A stretch of DNA of 64,000 bases from Acidobacteriaceae bacterium (GTDB taxonomy: Bacteria > Acidobacteriota > Terriglobia > Terriglobales > Acidobacteriaceae). The stretch's first letter is position 1. Every line of letters starts with the position of its first letter. The notes beneath the pieces were generated by a model that worked only from the letters and a program-made list of their open reading frames with translations, was not told the origin of the DNA and did no database searches. The stretch spans positions 4,123 to 68,122 of the forward strand of contig PKUV01000164.1 in assembly GCA_003131315.1 (NCBI GenBank). Direction: 5' to 3'. Shown here in pieces: positions 28,771 to 51,690 of this stretch. Position numbers and translations under genes: made by a program.

Positions 28771-30051
28771 ATGAGCACGAATGGCAACAAGGCGAACCCG
28801 ACCAGTCACCATGCACAACAACGCGCTGTCCCGAGTGGGATCAAGCTGCCGATTTACATGGATAATCACGCGACCACGCCGATGGATCCGCGGGTTCTCG
28901 AAGAAATGCTGCCCTACTTCATGGAGAAGTTCGGCAACGCCGCCAGCCGCAATCACCCGTTTGGATGGGCGGCCGAAGAAGCGGTCGAGTTGTCGCGCGA
29001 GCGTATCGCAAAGCTGATTGGCGCGACCTCGAAAGAGATCATCTTCACCTCGGGCGCCACCGAAAGCGACAACCTCGCAATCAAGGGCGTGGCGGAGATG
29101 TACCGCGAAAAGGGCAACCACATCATCACGGCGGTCACCGAACACAAGGCAGTGCTCGACACCTGCAAGCATCTTGAGAAGTTTGGCTTTCGCGTGACCT
29201 ATCTGCCGGTGCAGAAAGATGGACTGGTCGACCTCGATGATCTGAAGCGCACCATCGACGACAAGACGATTCTGGTCACGATCATGGCAGCCAACAATGA
29301 GATCGGCGTACTGCAACCGATCGCGGAAATTGGCAAACTGTGCCGCGAACGCGGCGTGATCTTCCACACCGACGCCGTGCAGGCTATCGGTAAGGTACCG
29401 GTGGACGTGAACAAGATGAACATCGATGTCGCATCCATCACCGGACACAAGCTGTACGGGCCGAAAGGCGCGGGCGCGCTTTATGTGCGCCGCAAGAATC
29501 CGCGCGTGCAGTTGGTGCCGCTGATTGACGGCGGCGGGCACGAGCGCGGAATGCGCTCCGGCACGCTCAATGTTCCCGGCATCGCCGGACTCGGCAAGGC
29601 TTGCGCAATCGCGCAGGAAGAGATGCCGCAGGAATCCTACAAAATGGCGGGCTTGCGAAACCGGCTGAAAGACAGCATCATGAGCCGGCTTGACGAGGTG
29701 TATATCAACGGCTCCATGGAACATCGCCTGCCGGGCAATCTGAATATCAGCTTTGCTTACGTGGAAGGCGAGTCGCTGCTGATGGGCATCAACGATATCG
29801 CGGTTTCGAGCGGATCGGCGTGCACCTCGGCGACACTCGAGCCATCTTATGTATTGAAGGCGCTCGGCACGGGCGACGATCTGGCGCACAGCTCGATCCG
29901 CTTCGGCATCGGGCGATTTAACACCGAGGCCGAGATTGACTACGTGGGCGACCGCGTGGTCGAGACGGTACTGCGTCTGCGCGAACTCTCGCCACTCTAC
30001 GAAATGGCGAAAGAGGGTGTGGACTTGAAGAGTGTGAAGTGGGCGGGATAG
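28771..30051 (+). CDS. iscS: Cysteine desulfurase IscS
   Basis: 426-aa PLP enzyme that takes sulfur from cysteine and hands a persulfide to IscU. Seen: [22 protein letters not shown], substrate loop [17 protein letters not shown] lysine at about residue 227 in [14 protein letters not shown], and the mobile catalytic loop [21 protein letters not shown] with Cys351. About 25 extra N-terminal residues (Asn/His/Gln-rich) precede the usual start. An AAGGAG site lies upstream of the ATG. Followed by a 136-bp gap filled by an inverted repeat, then iscU. Confidence 0.96.
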
Positions 30052-30054
30052 AAG

Positions 30055-30170
30055 CAAGGTTTCAAGGTTTCAAAGTTTCAAGGTTTCAAGGTGCCTTGAT
30101 CAAACTTGGAACCCTGACGACCGGCGGGTGCTTCCTTGAAACCTTGCAACCTTGAAACTTTGAAACCTTT
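30055..30170. repeat. Short-period inverted repeat (TTTCAAGG type), iscS-iscU gap
   Basis: Arms 30055-30091 and 30134-30170 are built of 7-8 bp units around GGTTTCAA; 33 of 37 positions pair when one is inverted. The element almost fills the gap between iscS and iscU and would fold into a long hairpin in the operon mRNA. Two more members of the same family are at 33981 and 34454 in the same operon. Confidence 0.9.
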
Positions 30171-30187
30171 AATTAAGGGGTGAAAGA

Positions 30188-32075: not shown

Positions 32076-33977
32076 ATGGCAACTGACTACATCGTCGGCA
32101 TCGATCTCGGCACCACGAACTCGCTCGTGGCCTACATGCAGGGGGATTCCCCTGTCGTCATCCCCGGAGAAGACGGGCTGAACCTTGTGCCCTCGGTGGT
32201 GGCACTCGACGAGAAGAACCAGATCATAGTGGGCAACGCCGCGCGCCGGTATCTGATCGAAACGCCGGAGCGCGCGGTTTACTCGGTCAAGCGCCTGATG
32301 GGGCGCGGCGTCGAGGATATACAGGACGAGCTGAAGCTGTTTCCGTTCCAGTTGGCGGAAGATCTTCACGAAGGAGAGGTTCTGCGCATCAAGATTGGTG
32401 AGCGAACTTACACGCCGCCTGAAATTTCCGCGCTGGTGCTGCGCCAACTGAAGCGCAATGCCGAGCGCTTTTTCGGAGCGTCCGTAACCCAGGCGGTTGT
32501 CACCGTCCCCGCATACTTTAATGACGCGCAGCGGCAGGCGACGAAAGACGCCGGTCGCATCGCCGGGCTGAATGTTTTGCGGCTGGTAAACGAACCGACG
32601 GCAGCATCGCTCGCTTACGGTCTGGACAAGAAGAAGCACGGCATCGTTGTGGTTTACGATCTGGGCGGCGGCACGTTCGACATTTCGATTCTCAAGCTGC
32701 ACGACGGCATTTTCGAGGTGATTGCCACCAACGGCGACACGCATCTCGGCGGGGACGACATCGACAATCTGCTGATCGCGCTCGCGCTCGACGACATTCG
32801 CGGCGATCTCGGACTCGATGTGCGCCGCAGCGGCGAAGCGGTGCAGCGCATCCGCAAGGCCGTGATCGAGGCCAAGATTGCGCTTTCGTCGCAGCCTTCG
32901 GCGACGCTCGATGTCGATTTGCCCGGTGGAAAGAAGTATCAGCGGGAGATTTCGCTCGAAGTCTTCGAGCAGATGATCCAACGCATCGTTGATCGCACGG
33001 TCGGTCCCTGCAAGCAGGCACTCAAAGACGCAGGCCTGAAGCCCGAACAAATCGACGAGGTCGTGCTGGTCGGGGGCTCCACGCGCATCCCGAAGGTGCG
33101 GCGGTTGGTGCAGGATCTGTTTCGACGCGCGCCGCACACGGATTTAAATCCGGACGAAGTGGTTGCGCTCGGCGCGGCCGTGCAGGCGAATATTCTCGGC
33201 GGCGGCTCCGAAATCACGAAAGAAATGCTGTTACTCGACGTGACCCCGCTTTCTCTGGGAATTGAAGTGGCAGGCGGCGTGACCGACAAGATCATCCTGC
33301 GCAACTCGACGGTGCCGGCTTCGGCAACGCAGTACTACACGACCCAGGTCGATGGCCAAACGAACGTCGCGATTCATGTGCTGCAAGGCGAACGCGAACT
33401 GGCACGGGATTGCCGGTCGCTGGCGCGATTCGATCTGAAGGGTGTTCCACCCATGCCCGCAGGCATGCCGCGCATTGAGGTGAAGTTTCTGATCGACGCC
33501 AACGGAATTTTGCGCGTCTCGGCGCGCGAGCAGCGCAGTGGAAAGGAAGCTGAAATCGACGTCCAGCCCAGTTACGGACTCACCGACGAACAGGTCGAGA
33601 ACATGCTGCTCGAATCGTTCGACTATGCGGAAGAGGATTTCCGGCAGCGGCAGGTCATTGAAGCGCGGCGCGAAGCAGACACGATCCTGACCGCGCTCGC
33701 GAAAGGAAAGAAGAATCAGGCCTGGCAGGAACTCACCAGCGACGAACGCCGCAACGTCGAGACGCTGGAGAAAGCTCTGGTTGCGGTAAAGGATGGCGAT
33801 GACTATCACGCGATCCGCGGGGGCATTGACGCGCTGAACGAGGCCACGATGCGTTTGGCGGAATTGATGATGGATACTGCCGTTTCGAACGCGCTCAAGG
33901 GAAAAGCCATGGACGACACCGATCTGGAGGAAGGGCTGCAGGCCGGCCATCCGGTGGCGAAGGCAGAGTTTGAATAA
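32076..33977 (+). CDS. hscA: Hsp70-type chaperone HscA
   Basis: 633-aa Hsp70 dedicated to iron-sulfur maturation; it uses ATP to help transfer clusters from IscU. Seen: ATPase motifs [30 protein letters not shown] and [16 protein letters not shown], and the substrate domain [18 protein letters not shown]. The lid is shorter than in DnaK and ends without the EEVD-like or glycine-rich tail, which supports HscA over DnaK, as does location in the isc operon beside hscB and fdx. Confidence 0.93.
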
Positions 33978-33980
33978 AGC

Positions 33981-34066
33981 AGGTTTCAAGGTTTCAAGGT
34001 TTCACAGTTTCAGGGTAAAACCCTCGCTTGCCACCTTGAAACTTTGAAACTTTGAAACTTTGAAAC
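33981..34066. repeat. Short-period inverted repeat (TTTCAAGG type), hscA-fdx gap
   Basis: Arms 33981-34014 and 34034-34066 consist of GGTTTCAA/TTGAAACT units, the same family as 30055 and 34454. The second arm ends 13 bases before the fdx ATG, so a hairpin would lie close to the ribosome site of fdx. Confidence 0.88.
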
Positions 34067-34079
34067 ATGGGGTTCTTAC

Positions 34080-34448
34080 ATGTCGGATGTAAACATAGTT
34101 CAGGTCACCTTTCTTCCCGAAGGCAAGACGGTAACCTTCGAACACGGCAAGCTGCCGTATAAAGACCATGGCAAGAAAGAGTCGCTGCTCGATGTAGCGT
34201 TGAACTTCGGCATTCATCTCGATCATGCTTGCGGAGGAAACTGCGCCTGCACGACCTGCCACGTCTGGGTGAAAGAAGGCGCGGACCTGATCTCGGAGAT
34301 GGAAGATGACGAAGCCGACAAGCTCGACATGGCCGCCGATCTTCAGTTAAACTCGCGCCTCGGATGCCAGACCGTGATCAAGAAGCCGGGTAAAGTGGTC
34401 GTGGAAATCCCGGCGTGGAACCGGAATTACGTTTCGGAAGAGCATTAA
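34080..34448 (+). CDS. fdx: ISC-type [2Fe-2S] ferredoxin
   Basis: 122-aa ferredoxin that supplies electrons for cluster assembly. Seen: cluster ligands C51-x5-C57-x2-C60 in HACGGNCACTTCHVWV and Cys96 in SRLGCQTV, the spacing of adrenodoxin-like ISC ferredoxins. The acidic surface helix LISEMEDDEADKLDMA is typical of the partner-binding site. Placement after hscA and before iscX matches the proteobacterial isc order. Confidence 0.95.
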   Translation: MSDVNIVQVTFLPEGKTVTFEHGKLPYKDHGKKESLLDVALNFGIHLDHACGGNCACTTCHVWVKEGADLISEMEDDEADKLDMAADLQLNSRLGCQTVIKKPGKVVVEIPAWNRNYVSEEH

Positions 34449-34453
34449 GAGCC

Positions 34454-34543
34454 AGGTTTCAAGGTTTCAAGGTTTCAAAGAAGCCCGCAAAAGCTCTGCG
34501 ATCCGAATCTTTGAAACTCTGAAACCTTGAAACTTTGAAACCT
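34454..34543. repeat. Short-period inverted repeat (TTTCAAGG type), fdx-iscX gap
   Basis: Arms 34454-34480 (GGTTTCAA units) and 34509-34543 (TTGAAACY units) pair imperfectly. It is the third copy of this family in the operon and ends 16 bases before the iscX ATG. Confidence 0.88.
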
Positions 34544-34559
34544 GCCTTTGGAGCCATTC

Positions 34560-37833: not shown

Positions 37834-37888
37834 GGCACGCCTTCAGGCGTGCCGTAAGTGCTGCGTTATGAAAGCGCCTTCAGGCGCT
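37834..37888. repeat. Two TTCA-loop hairpins in a convergent gap
   Basis: GGCACGCC-TTCA-GGCGTGCC (37834-37853) and AGCGCC-TTCA-GGCGCT (37873-37888). They lie between the convergent MFS and DMT genes and could act as bidirectional terminators, but the same hairpin type occurs inside rnr (50006) and at 24022, so they are dispersed elements. Nothing else is seen in this 179-bp gap. Confidence 0.85.
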
Positions 37889-44701: not shown

Positions 44702-44758
44702 ACGCGGATTATGCTGGTCGAAACAGGAGCCTGTCAAAGCTGTGCCGGGATTTGGCTC

Positions 44759-44832
44759 CCCTGTGTACCTCTGTGTACCCTGTGGTTCAGGCTTTTGATT
44801 CTCAACCACAGGGTACACGGAGGTACACAGGG
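44759..44832. repeat. 29-bp inverted repeat (CTGTGTACC type), divergent gap
   Basis: Arms 44759-44787 and 44804-44832 pair at 28 of 29 positions around a 16-nt loop. The arms repeat GTGTACC-like units. The element lies in the 209-bp divergent gap between the aminotransferase and murJ genes, so both promoters must share this space. Confidence 0.9.
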
Positions 44833-44910
44833 GGAAAGCCGATTGCCGCTTCCGATTCCGGCCCTCCAATAACTCTCCCCACAACCGCCAGATGCGTTAA
44901 TCTGCGAAGG

Positions 44911-48043: not shown

Positions 48044-48124
48044 AGTTCTCAGTTCTCAGTTCTCGGTTCTCAGTTCTCAGTGCTGAATCGAAGACTGAGA
48101 ACTGGGAACTGAGAACTGAGAACT
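48044..48124. repeat. AGTTCTC heptamer inverted repeat directly before rnr
   Basis: Arm 48044-48081 is five AGTTCTC-type heptamers; arm 48094-48124 is the inverse run, pairing at 29 of 31 positions. The second arm ends one base before the rnr ATG at 48126, so the ribosome site of rnr would lie inside the hairpin. Same family as 41453 and 42316. Confidence 0.92.
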
Positions 48125-48125
48125 G

Positions 48126-50549
48126 ATGTTTAGCAAGCGCCACGCTATTCCGCAGGCTGCCAAGGGACGCAACATGCTGGTCGGCCGCCTGACCATGCAT
48201 CGCGACGGCTTCGGCTTCGTGATTCCCGACGCCACTTCGCTCGATGCCAGTCTGAAGGCCCGCCTCGCGGGCGATGTCTTCATTCCTCCGCACGCCACTG
48301 GATCCTCCATGCACGGCGACCGCGTCCTGGTCGAAGTCTCCGCCATCCGCACCGATGGCCGCGCCGAAGGCCGCATCATCCGCTCCCTGTCGCGCGCGCA
48401 TCCGACCGTGGTCGGCATCTTCCACTATGGAAACCGCCACAACTACGTAAAGCCGATCGACGAAAAAGTGAGGCAGGAAATCGTCATCCCGCCGGGGATG
48501 GAGTATCCGCAATCCTCTGTGTCCCCTGTGCCCTCTGTGGTTGGGATTTCTCCAAATCAATCAAAAACGCCAGCGAAAAAGAAATCTCGAGATCGTGTCA
48601 TAGGCGAAGAAGCCGCACGCCACACCGATTGGCAGGATCTCGACGGCGTAGTTGTCGATGTGGAAATCACCGACTGGCCGAGCGCCACGCAAAACCCGCG
48701 CGGCCGCGTCATCGAGATCCTCGGCGAAGAAGATGATTTCGGAGTCGACGTCGAGATCATGATCCGCAAGTTTCACCTGCCCCACCGCTTCCCGCCCGAA
48801 GCGATCGAAGAAGCGCAAGCCATCGAATCCGAAATTCCCGCCGACGCATTGCGTCACCGCCGCGACTACCGCGAGCTTCCCATTGTCACCATCGATGGCG
48901 AAACCGCGCGCGATTTCGACGATGCCGTCCACGTCCGCCAACTCGAAAACGGCAACTATGAACTGCAGGTCCACATCGCCGACGTCGCCCAATACGTAAC
49001 CCCCAACTCGCCGCTCGATCAGGAAGCCCGTCTGCGCGGCACCAGCGTCTATTTCCCCGACCGCGCCATCCCCATGCTGCCGCTAGAGCTCTCGACCGAC
49101 ATTTGCAGTCTGCGCCCGCAAGTCGACCGCCTCGTGCTCTCCTGCACCATGGAGATTGACCACCAGGGCGAGATCGTCAGCTATGAAATCAACCAAGGCG
49201 TGATCCGCTCTGCCAACCGCATGACCTACACCGCCGTGAACGCCGTCATCGAAGGAGACGCCGCCGCCCGCCGCGAATACGCCGCCCAGGTCGAGCACTT
49301 CGAACGCATGCGCGATCTGGCGATGATCCTAAACCGCAAGCGCGAACGCCGCGGATCGATCGATTTCGATCTCCCGGAAGCGGTCATCGAGTTTGACGAA
49401 CTCGGAATGATGAAGAGCATCACAAGATCGGAGCGCAACGTCGCCCACCGCCTCATTGAAGAATTCATGCTGTCGGCGAACGAGTGCGTCGCGCACTATC
49501 TAGAAAACAAACGCATCGCCTCCCTCTACCGCATCCACGAGAAGCCCGACGCCAAACGTGTGTACGACTTCGAAATCATCGCTGCCACTTTCGGATACTC
49601 GCTCGGCGTGGGCGCGTTGCCCATTCAGCGCGTGCAACTCAAAGCCGACCGCCGCGACGCGCGCGGCACCGGCAAGCGCGTGCGCGAAATCGAAGTGCCC
49701 AAAGAAATCCACATCACCCCGCGCATGTATCAGAAACTCACAGAGAAGATCGCGGGCAAGCCGGAAGAGAGGATTCTGAGTTTCCTGATGCTGCGGTCGC
49801 TGAAACAGGCCCGCTATTCCGAAGAAAATCGCGGACACTTCGCCTTAGCCGCCACCACCTACACCCATTTCACCTCGCCCATCCGCCGCTATCCCGACCT
49901 GATCGTGCACCGGATACTGAAAGAAGTGCTGCGCGACTCGGCCGAGATTATGGATGAAGAGGTACCAGTAGGGACGTCATCGGCACCTTCCCGATCCGTG
50001 GAAGAGCGGCCCTTCAGGGCCGCGTCCAGCCCTTCTTTGCAGACCGGGGCTTTAGCCCCCGAGGGCCCGCCGCCGTCGCCGTGGTCCAAGCGCCGCGACC
50101 ACGCCGCCCATCAACACTCCCTTGAGCCCCTGGCCGGTCCGATCGCGCTTGAAGAACTCCACAACATCGCCGAGGAATCCAGCCAGTCCGAACGCCGTGC
50201 CGACGAAGCCGAGCGCGGCCTGATGGAATGGAAGAAAGTAAAATTCATGGAGCGCCGTATCGGCGAAGACTTCGACGGCCTCATCATCAGCGTAACCAAG
50301 TTCGGATTCTTCGTGGAACTCACCGACCTCTTCGTCGAGGGCCTGGTGCCGCTCAACACGCTAACCGACGACCGCTACACCTTCCACGAAGACACGCGCC
50401 AGATCATCGGCCAGCGCTCCCGCCGCGCCTACCACATGGGCGACCGCGTGCGCGTGCTGGTCGACCGGATTGATCCGGTAGAGAAAAAGATCCAGTTCGC
50501 GGTGCTAGAAGAGCAGCCAAAGCCGTCAGGAAAAGGCCGGCGTAAGTGA
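48126..50549 (+). CDS. rnr: Ribonuclease R, short N-terminus and repeat-derived insertions
   Basis: 807-aa RNB-family 3'-5' exoribonuclease that degrades structured RNA. Seen: a cold-shock domain from the very start (MLVGRLTMHRDGFGFVIPD), the catalytic RNB motif IVTIDGETARDFDDAVHV (near 255-266) with its Asp cluster, HFTSPIRRYPDLIVHRIL, and a C-terminal S1 domain (FDGLIISVTKFGFFVELTDLFVEGLV). The helix-turn-helix domain that normally precedes the cold-shock domains is missing. Residues about 130-140 and 613-672 are insertions that contain dispersed repeats; the second falls between the RNB core and S1, where 10-15 residues are usual. Confidence 0.92.
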   Translation: MFSKRHAIPQAAKGRNMLVGRLTMHRDGFGFVIPDATSLDASLKARLAGDVFIPPHATGSSMHGDRVLVEVSAIRTDGRAEGRIIRSLSRAHPTVVGIFHYGNRHNYVKPIDEKVRQEIVIPPGMEYPQSSVSPVPSVVGISPNQSKTPAKKKSRDRVIGEEAARHTDWQDLDGVVVDVEITDWPSATQNPRGRVIEILGEEDDFGVDVEIMIRKFHLPHRFPPEAIEEAQAIESEIPADALRHRRDYRELPIVTIDGETARDFDDAVHVRQLENGNYELQVHIADVAQYVTPNSPLDQEARLRGTSVYFPDRAIPMLPLELSTDICSLRPQVDRLVLSCTMEIDHQGEIVSYEINQGVIRSANRMTYTAVNAVIEGDAAARREYAAQVEHFERMRDLAMILNRKRERRGSIDFDLPEAVIEFDELGMMKSITRSERNVAHRLIEEFMLSANECVAHYLENKRIASLYRIHEKPDAKRVYDFEIIAATFGYSLGVGALPIQRVQLKADRRDARGTGKRVREIEVPKEIHITPRMYQKLTEKIAGKPEERILSFLMLRSLKQARYSEENRGHFALAATTYTHFTSPIRRYPDLIVHRILKEVLRDSAEIMDEEVPVGTSSAPSRSVEERPFRAASSPSLQTGALAPEGPPPSPWSKRRDHAAHQHSLEPLAGPIALEELHNIAEESSQSERRADEAERGLMEWKKVKFMERRIGEDFDGLIISVTKFGFFVELTDLFVEGLVPLNTLTDDRYTFHEDTRQIIGQRSRRAYHMGDRVRVLVDRIDPVEKKIQFAVLEEQPKPSGKGRRK
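48514..48545. repeat. CTCTGTG-type repeat inside rnr
   Basis: A single arm of CCTCTGTG/CCCCTGTG/CCCTCTGTGG units, related to the family at 44759. It is read in frame as SSVSPVPSVVG between the two cold-shock domains of RNase R. Confidence 0.75.
50006..50059. repeat. TTCA-loop hairpin pair inside rnr
   Basis: GCGGCCC-TTCA-GGGCCGC (50006-50023) and GGGGCT-TT-AGCCCC (50046-50059), both in frame within the extra segment of RNase R. The first is the same hairpin design as at 37834 and, inverted, at 24022. Confidence 0.88.
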
Positions 50550-51607: not shown

Positions 51608-51690
51608 ATTGTCATCCTGAGCGAAGCGAAGGACCTGCTTCTTTTCGACGGCCGTAAGAGCAGGTCCTTCGCTTCGCTCAGGATGACAAT
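51608..51690. repeat. 32-bp perfect inverted repeat in a convergent gap
   Basis: Arms 51608-51639 and 51659-51690 are perfect inverse copies (each arm starts from ATTGTCATCCTGAGCG and runs through GAAGCGAAGGACCTGCT), with a 19-nt loop. It fills the gap between the convergent FMN protein and quinone reductase genes and could terminate both. A fragment, CATCCTGAGCGAA, recurs at 46647. No T-tract follows. Confidence 0.93.

Follow-up and report, generated by a model that had tools for sequence, protein, structure and literature searches.

Rickettsia and a small number of other genomes account for most known intragenic palindromic repeats, which have largely been isolated examples; the Rickettsia palindromic element (RPE) inserted in gmk is reportedly translated, with the protein active. 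The RPEs (Ogata 2000, 2002) have been reviewed in PMC2229807. Another type, the REPs tagged with GTAG/CGTC, occurs within genes of Opitutus terrae, R. conorii and others, in replication and repair genes and often as 20–30 residues, and in recB, X. campestris and X. oryzae carry different REPs at roughly one position (PMC3733652). Acidobacteria, including Koribacter, encode tyrosine transposases with terminal repeats (TIRYT/RAYT), according to PMC3733652 and PMC6006769. The preliminary description of the DNA analysed here knew of no such class of absorbed mobile palindrome in this phylum; the transposases with terminal repeats had already been reported there, although no acidobacterial intragenic REP was found in the text consulted of PMC3733652.

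Repeat-bearing loops of RNase R

The window, i.e. the whole stretch of DNA that was analysed (64,000 nt), contains an RNase R gene in which two loops carry repeats:

48126..50549, + strand: RNase R (rnr), 807 aa, with the Pfam domains OB_RNB (residues 20–86), CSD2 (173–223), RNB (245–603) and S1 (711–792)
48501..48620, + strand: loop A, residues 126–165, between both cold-shock domains, the second repeat-bearing place
48514..48542, + strand: CCTCTGTGTCCCCTGTGCCCTCTGTGGTT repeat within loop A, read as SSVSPVPSVVG
49932..50138, + strand: loop B, residues 603–671, from the end of the RNB domain to the helix preceding S1
50073..50141, + strand: older part of the extension (PSPWSKRRDHAAHQHSLEPLAGP), conserved in the clade and without a recognised repeat

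All 807 codons of the open reading frame are uninterrupted, as had been claimed. Loop B comprises approximately 69 residues, compared with about 15 at the equivalent place in the RNases R of E. coli and B. subtilis, and the match to the solved RNase R chains breaks here, residues 603–672 facing some 13–15 residues of the chains (577–591 of 8cdu and 507–523 of 5xgu). Where the preliminary description has a repeat-laden insert of about 60 residues, about 55 are extra relative to the solved chains, and the repeat accounts for only about 24 of these, the rest being older conserved sequence. The loop B flanks, EVPVG... and PSPWSKRRDHAAHQ...GPI, are kept in most of the clade and are missing in the other family of the order. 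In an AlphaFold2 model of very poor quality (24 sequences; mean pLDDT 51, pTM 0.30), residues 610–657 have neither helix nor strand.

Two inverted pairs elsewhere in the window can be mentioned here: one at 44758–44833, related to the CCTCTGTGTCCCCTGTGCCCTCTGTGGTT repeat of loop A, and another, AGTTCTCAGTTCTCAGT / ACTGAGAACTGAGAACTG, at 48049–48126, which lies immediately 5' of rnr and whose end coincides with the predicted start codon (ATG at 48126).

The repeat family of the window

The element in loop B, denoted ‘VEER' family, consists of two hairpins, both found where the preliminary description had reported them:

49996..50066, + strand: ‘VEER' family palindromic repeat, CCGTGGAAGAGCGGCCCTTCAGGGCCGCGT-spacer-GGGGCTTTAGCCCCCGAGG, read as approximately VEERPFRAASSPSLQTGALAPEG
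50006..50023, + strand: hairpin 1, GCGGCCC-TTCA-GGGCCGC (GCGGCCCTTCAGGGCCGC)
50046..50059, + strand: hairpin 2, GGGGCT-TT-AGCCCC (GGGGCTTTAGCCCC)

Within the window, the hairpin 1 palindrome occurs once, and the bare 14-nt GGGGCTTTAGCCCC shows no excess over chance with 3 mismatches allowed. The sites at 37834 and 24022, which had been assigned to the same hairpin type, have the two-hairpin layout and the TTCA/TTTA loops in common with it but are members of different families. A 29-nt core pattern covering the first half of the element was searched in 41 genomes. The genome of the window holds 6 copies, mostly intergenic, most congeners also hold copies (up to 19) and a sister genus has one, while 16 genomes from other families have none; the reversed pattern gave no match in any of the 41 genomes.

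The consensus of about 50 copies from the genus is ACCGTGGAAGAGCGGCCCTTCAGGGCCGCGTaag...GGGCTTtAGCCCC.GtGG; it starts with ACCGTGGAAGAGCGGC, and the GTAG / CGTC tag is missing at the palindrome. Read in the frame of RNase R, the consensus gives GCG-TAA; the tenth codon is a stop in 36 of 55 copies, and 12 of the 55 are fully open over 75 nt. All four copies located in RNase R (window, L140, L088 and L113, perhaps non-independent) have GCG-TCN instead of the stop.

Turnover of repeats at loop B

The RNases R of 18 congeners and 80 further relatives were compared, the latter from peat and soil Terriglobales MAGs, several of them named Candidatus Sulfotelmatobacter; nearly all of these sequences come from metagenome assemblies. 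Between the conserved flanks, the centre of loop B varies between species, and many of the centres are recognisable palindromes, such as TCATCCTGAGCGAAGCGAAGG, GTAGCGCCGGC..GCCGGC, GGCACGACTTCAGTCGTGCC, GTGTGGAAGCGGGGC..CACCACAC, GTATCAGGGCATCGCTTTAGCGATGCC and others, including the SAGVPPA family of other species, which starts with CCGTAGCGCC, i.e. with GTAG. A tree was built from 75 RNase R sequences reduced to their cores by removing loops A and B. The repeats in loop B represent at least 11 families and require, on this tree, at least 20 changes among the rows labelled with a repeat, or 29 if the unlabelled rows are counted as a state; in 34 of the 75 relatives, loop B contains no recognised repeat. 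The row nearest to the window, L061, with a core identity of 95%, carries a repeat of a different family. A near-empty site is represented by L132, which lacks, in frame, 36 nt that are present in its close relatives L098 and L102. The check that had been proposed, an alignment of related acidobacteria, thus showed this point to hold repeats of different families or nothing recognisable as a repeat.

The extension might instead be an old clade-specific protein domain that has a function of its own and involves no repeat. The preliminary description had named a conserved insert in orthologues as the sign of such a domain, and the flanks, PSPWSKRRD...GPI, are indeed conserved throughout the clade; the centre, however, has no conserved sequence, and close relatives carry different multi-copy repeats there, which makes this reading highly improbable.

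Other observations pertain to the same loop and its surroundings. A further repeat of the GCGGACAGGAGTGTCCGC type (approximately RAGAPAPH) lies in the 3' part of loop B, past PWSKRR, in L091, L095, L098, L099, L102 and L132. A perfect 32-nt inverted repeat at 51608–51690 of the window belongs to the TCATCCTGAGCGAAGCGAAGGACCTGCT family, which is also found inside RNase R of several congeners. In L131:3501-6359 (PMHV01000044.1), a PF00719 inorganic pyrophosphatase-like domain (residues 659–759, E 3.3e-13) lies in frame within loop B; it could be real or could come from a chimeric assembly.

Genomic distribution of the repeats and their link to Y1 transposases

The distribution of the repeats is far from even, both along the RNase R gene and across the genome. 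When 85 RNase R genes were compared by blastn (E up to 1e-3) with 1.196 Mb of the genome of the window, split into non-coding (234 kb) and coding DNA (959 kb), the non-coding part yielded 214 matches, with E-values down to 2.5e-23. Loop B accounted for 180 of them and loop A (residues 120–159) for 17; another 13 fell in the bin that covers the gene start and the positions preceding it, and the remaining 4 lay in other places. The coding part, although fourfold larger, yielded 20. A k-mer census of the same 1.196 Mb, 80% of which is coding, identified 605 repeat tracts, with 562 outside and 39 inside the genes predicted by our own simple gene caller. The inserts of three relatives are multi-copy in the genomes that carry them (30 matches in G017, 45 in G001 and 27 in G009) and have no match in the outgroup G020. 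Additionally, arrays in which an 8-nt unit (GGTTTCAA) forms inverted pairs were noticed at 30041–30181, 33976–34081 and 34438–34548 of the window.

The genome of the window encodes 11 Y1_Tnp genes. Together with its relatives it provides 38 Y1 (HUH) transposase loci, 32 of which are bounded by terminal inverted repeats. The terminal repeats of ten of these loci match RNase R of 28 relatives, with 33 matches falling in loop B, another 18 in loop A and 3 upstream, and none in the core. The identity between an RNase R loop and a transposase terminal repeat reaches 98% over 44 nt; L261 of G009 C33 (CGTAGCGCCGGCGTCCCGCCGGC), for example, is 95% identical to loop B of L065 and 98% identical to loop A of L132, and other terminal repeats pair with RNase R as L266 with L055, L207 and L253 with L098 and L102, and L206 with L063. 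In the genome of the window, the same repeats have 349 matches in the 234 kb of non-coding DNA and 6 in the 959 kb of coding DNA. These matches link several of the loop families to RAYT/TIRYT-type HUH transposases.

For the family of the window itself, copies flank none of the 38 Y1 loci; because no such Y1 gene was found, its transposase is suggested by analogy with the other families. Paired inverted ‘VEER' copies on contig 17 of G003 were considered as a transposon and rejected, the stretch of approximately 590 bp having no clear Y1-like ORF.

These matches also bear on the possibility that loop B is an ordinary hypervariable, GC-rich linker whose likeness to intergenic repeats is merely compositional. 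The linker at this position does vary in length in other genera, and the 34 of 75 rows in which no repeat was recognised would fit as well. The matches, however, are to non-coding DNA, are concentrated in the loops and have E-values as low as that quoted above; with the near-identity to a transposase terminal repeat over 44 nt and the 27–45 matches within the genomes of the carriers, a purely compositional resemblance is hardly credible.

Repeats in other genes

In-frame palindromic repeats also occur in other genes of this genome, among them C42:67910-69892, C83:26988-29204, C88:42486-45530, C28:12763-13851 and C88:37520-38524, recognised by eye and taken to be, in this order, DnaG primase, RecG, NrdJ (class II ribonucleotide reductase), AtpG (ATP synthase gamma) and TsaC/YrdC (threonylcarbamoyl-AMP synthase). 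The ribonucleotide reductase gene contains three repeat tracts; the AtpG insert is common to relatives and is decaying; and the DnaG linker has several repeats, one of which is swapped in L316 and one missing in L328. Four more intragenic calls (C165:27776, C122:61236, C88:17303 and C28:36208) were dropped for doubtful starts or spurious fusions. Since repeats are found in DnaG, AtpG, RecG and others as well as in loop B, intragenic repeats are general in this genome, and RNase R is distinguished by turnover at one place.

RNase R acts on structured RNA, and the repeats might be retained because they serve the rnr mRNA as hairpins that the enzyme must unwind, resulting in autoregulation. The inserts are mostly hairpins, and the folding z of loop B of the window is about –2.9. 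The mean z of loop B, nevertheless, is –0.27 in unlabelled and –0.50 in labelled relatives, against –0.15 and –0.03, respectively, for the rest of the gene; many of the repeat-labelled loops are weakly structured, some repeats of loop A, such as CCTCTGTGTCC, form no hairpin on their own, and comparable inserts are present in DnaG, AtpG and RecG. A function at the RNA level is disfavoured because loop B of the repeat-less relatives has no clear excess of structure over the rest of the gene, and we regard it as very unlikely.

Origin and persistence of the inserts

It appears very probable that REP-like two-hairpin palindromes, mobilised by Y1 transposases, persist in a permissive loop of RNase R and are replaced over time. 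What is seen directly is that the families are multi-copy and mostly intergenic, lie, within RNase R, in the two loops, differ between close relatives and, in some cases, match transposase termini. The proposal of a mobile palindrome taken up in frame, as in Rickettsia, is supported by the multiple, mostly intergenic copies, by the different occupancy of the site in relatives and by the matches to Y1 termini.

The palindromes, several of which are terminal inverted repeats of Y1 elements, would move through Y1 transposase activity, and entry into the gene would accordingly have been by transposition; other possible routes for repeats of this kind are ectopic recombination and gene conversion. 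Insertion would be widespread, with most of the coding sites purged, and copies would survive in flexible loops where their length and frame keep the ORF open. In this manner, REP-like two-hairpin DNA would have entered the RNase R loop, where it now reads as about 24 residues that are presumably translated and probably neutral for the enzyme. Loop B would then gain, lose and exchange palindromes, with resident copies decaying or being replaced. It is unlikely that loop B is not merely a site of survival but a hotspot actively preferred by HUH transposases through its DNA target or lagging-strand context; if so, selfish palindromes would recurrently become protein in rnr, which would act as their standing reservoir.

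Comparison with known systems

A search of the literature, mostly outside subscription journals, returned nothing on repeats in the RNase R of Acidobacteria, and no description of one site at which many families replace each other across a clade. Like RPEs, the repeats described here are short, hairpin-forming palindromes that occur between genes and in frame within unrelated conserved proteins, with decaying copies; unlike RPEs, they come from another phylum, and many unrelated families share one loop of one gene, several matching transposase termini. By this analogy, the insert appears to work like an RPE, and membership in a described RPE family is not claimed. The GTAG/CGTC REPs are similar in being intragenic and in that different REPs share a site, and the SAGVPPA family has the GTAG start; they differ in that replacement here involves at least 11 families in dozens of species, and the palindrome of the window is devoid of the tag. 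The many-copy, mostly intergenic distribution of REP elements holds for the repeat tracts taken together; the family of the window has only 6 copies here and at most 19 in a congener. With TIRYT/RAYT (TnpA-REP), the common feature is Y1 HUH transposases bounded by inverted repeats that are also dispersed elsewhere; a tie from such termini to coding sequence, RNase R especially, was not found in the literature searched. Overall, at least 11 families have occupied a single loop of one conserved enzyme in one clade, with at least 20 changes, and several of these families have candidate transposases. Close comparisons can therefore address the rate at which proteins acquire selfish DNA, the frames that survive, the speed at which the peptides decay and the question of whether loops of this kind are targeted or tolerant. 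With different repeats at one spot in closely related species, the rnr gene offers a natural experiment on selfish DNA turning into protein.
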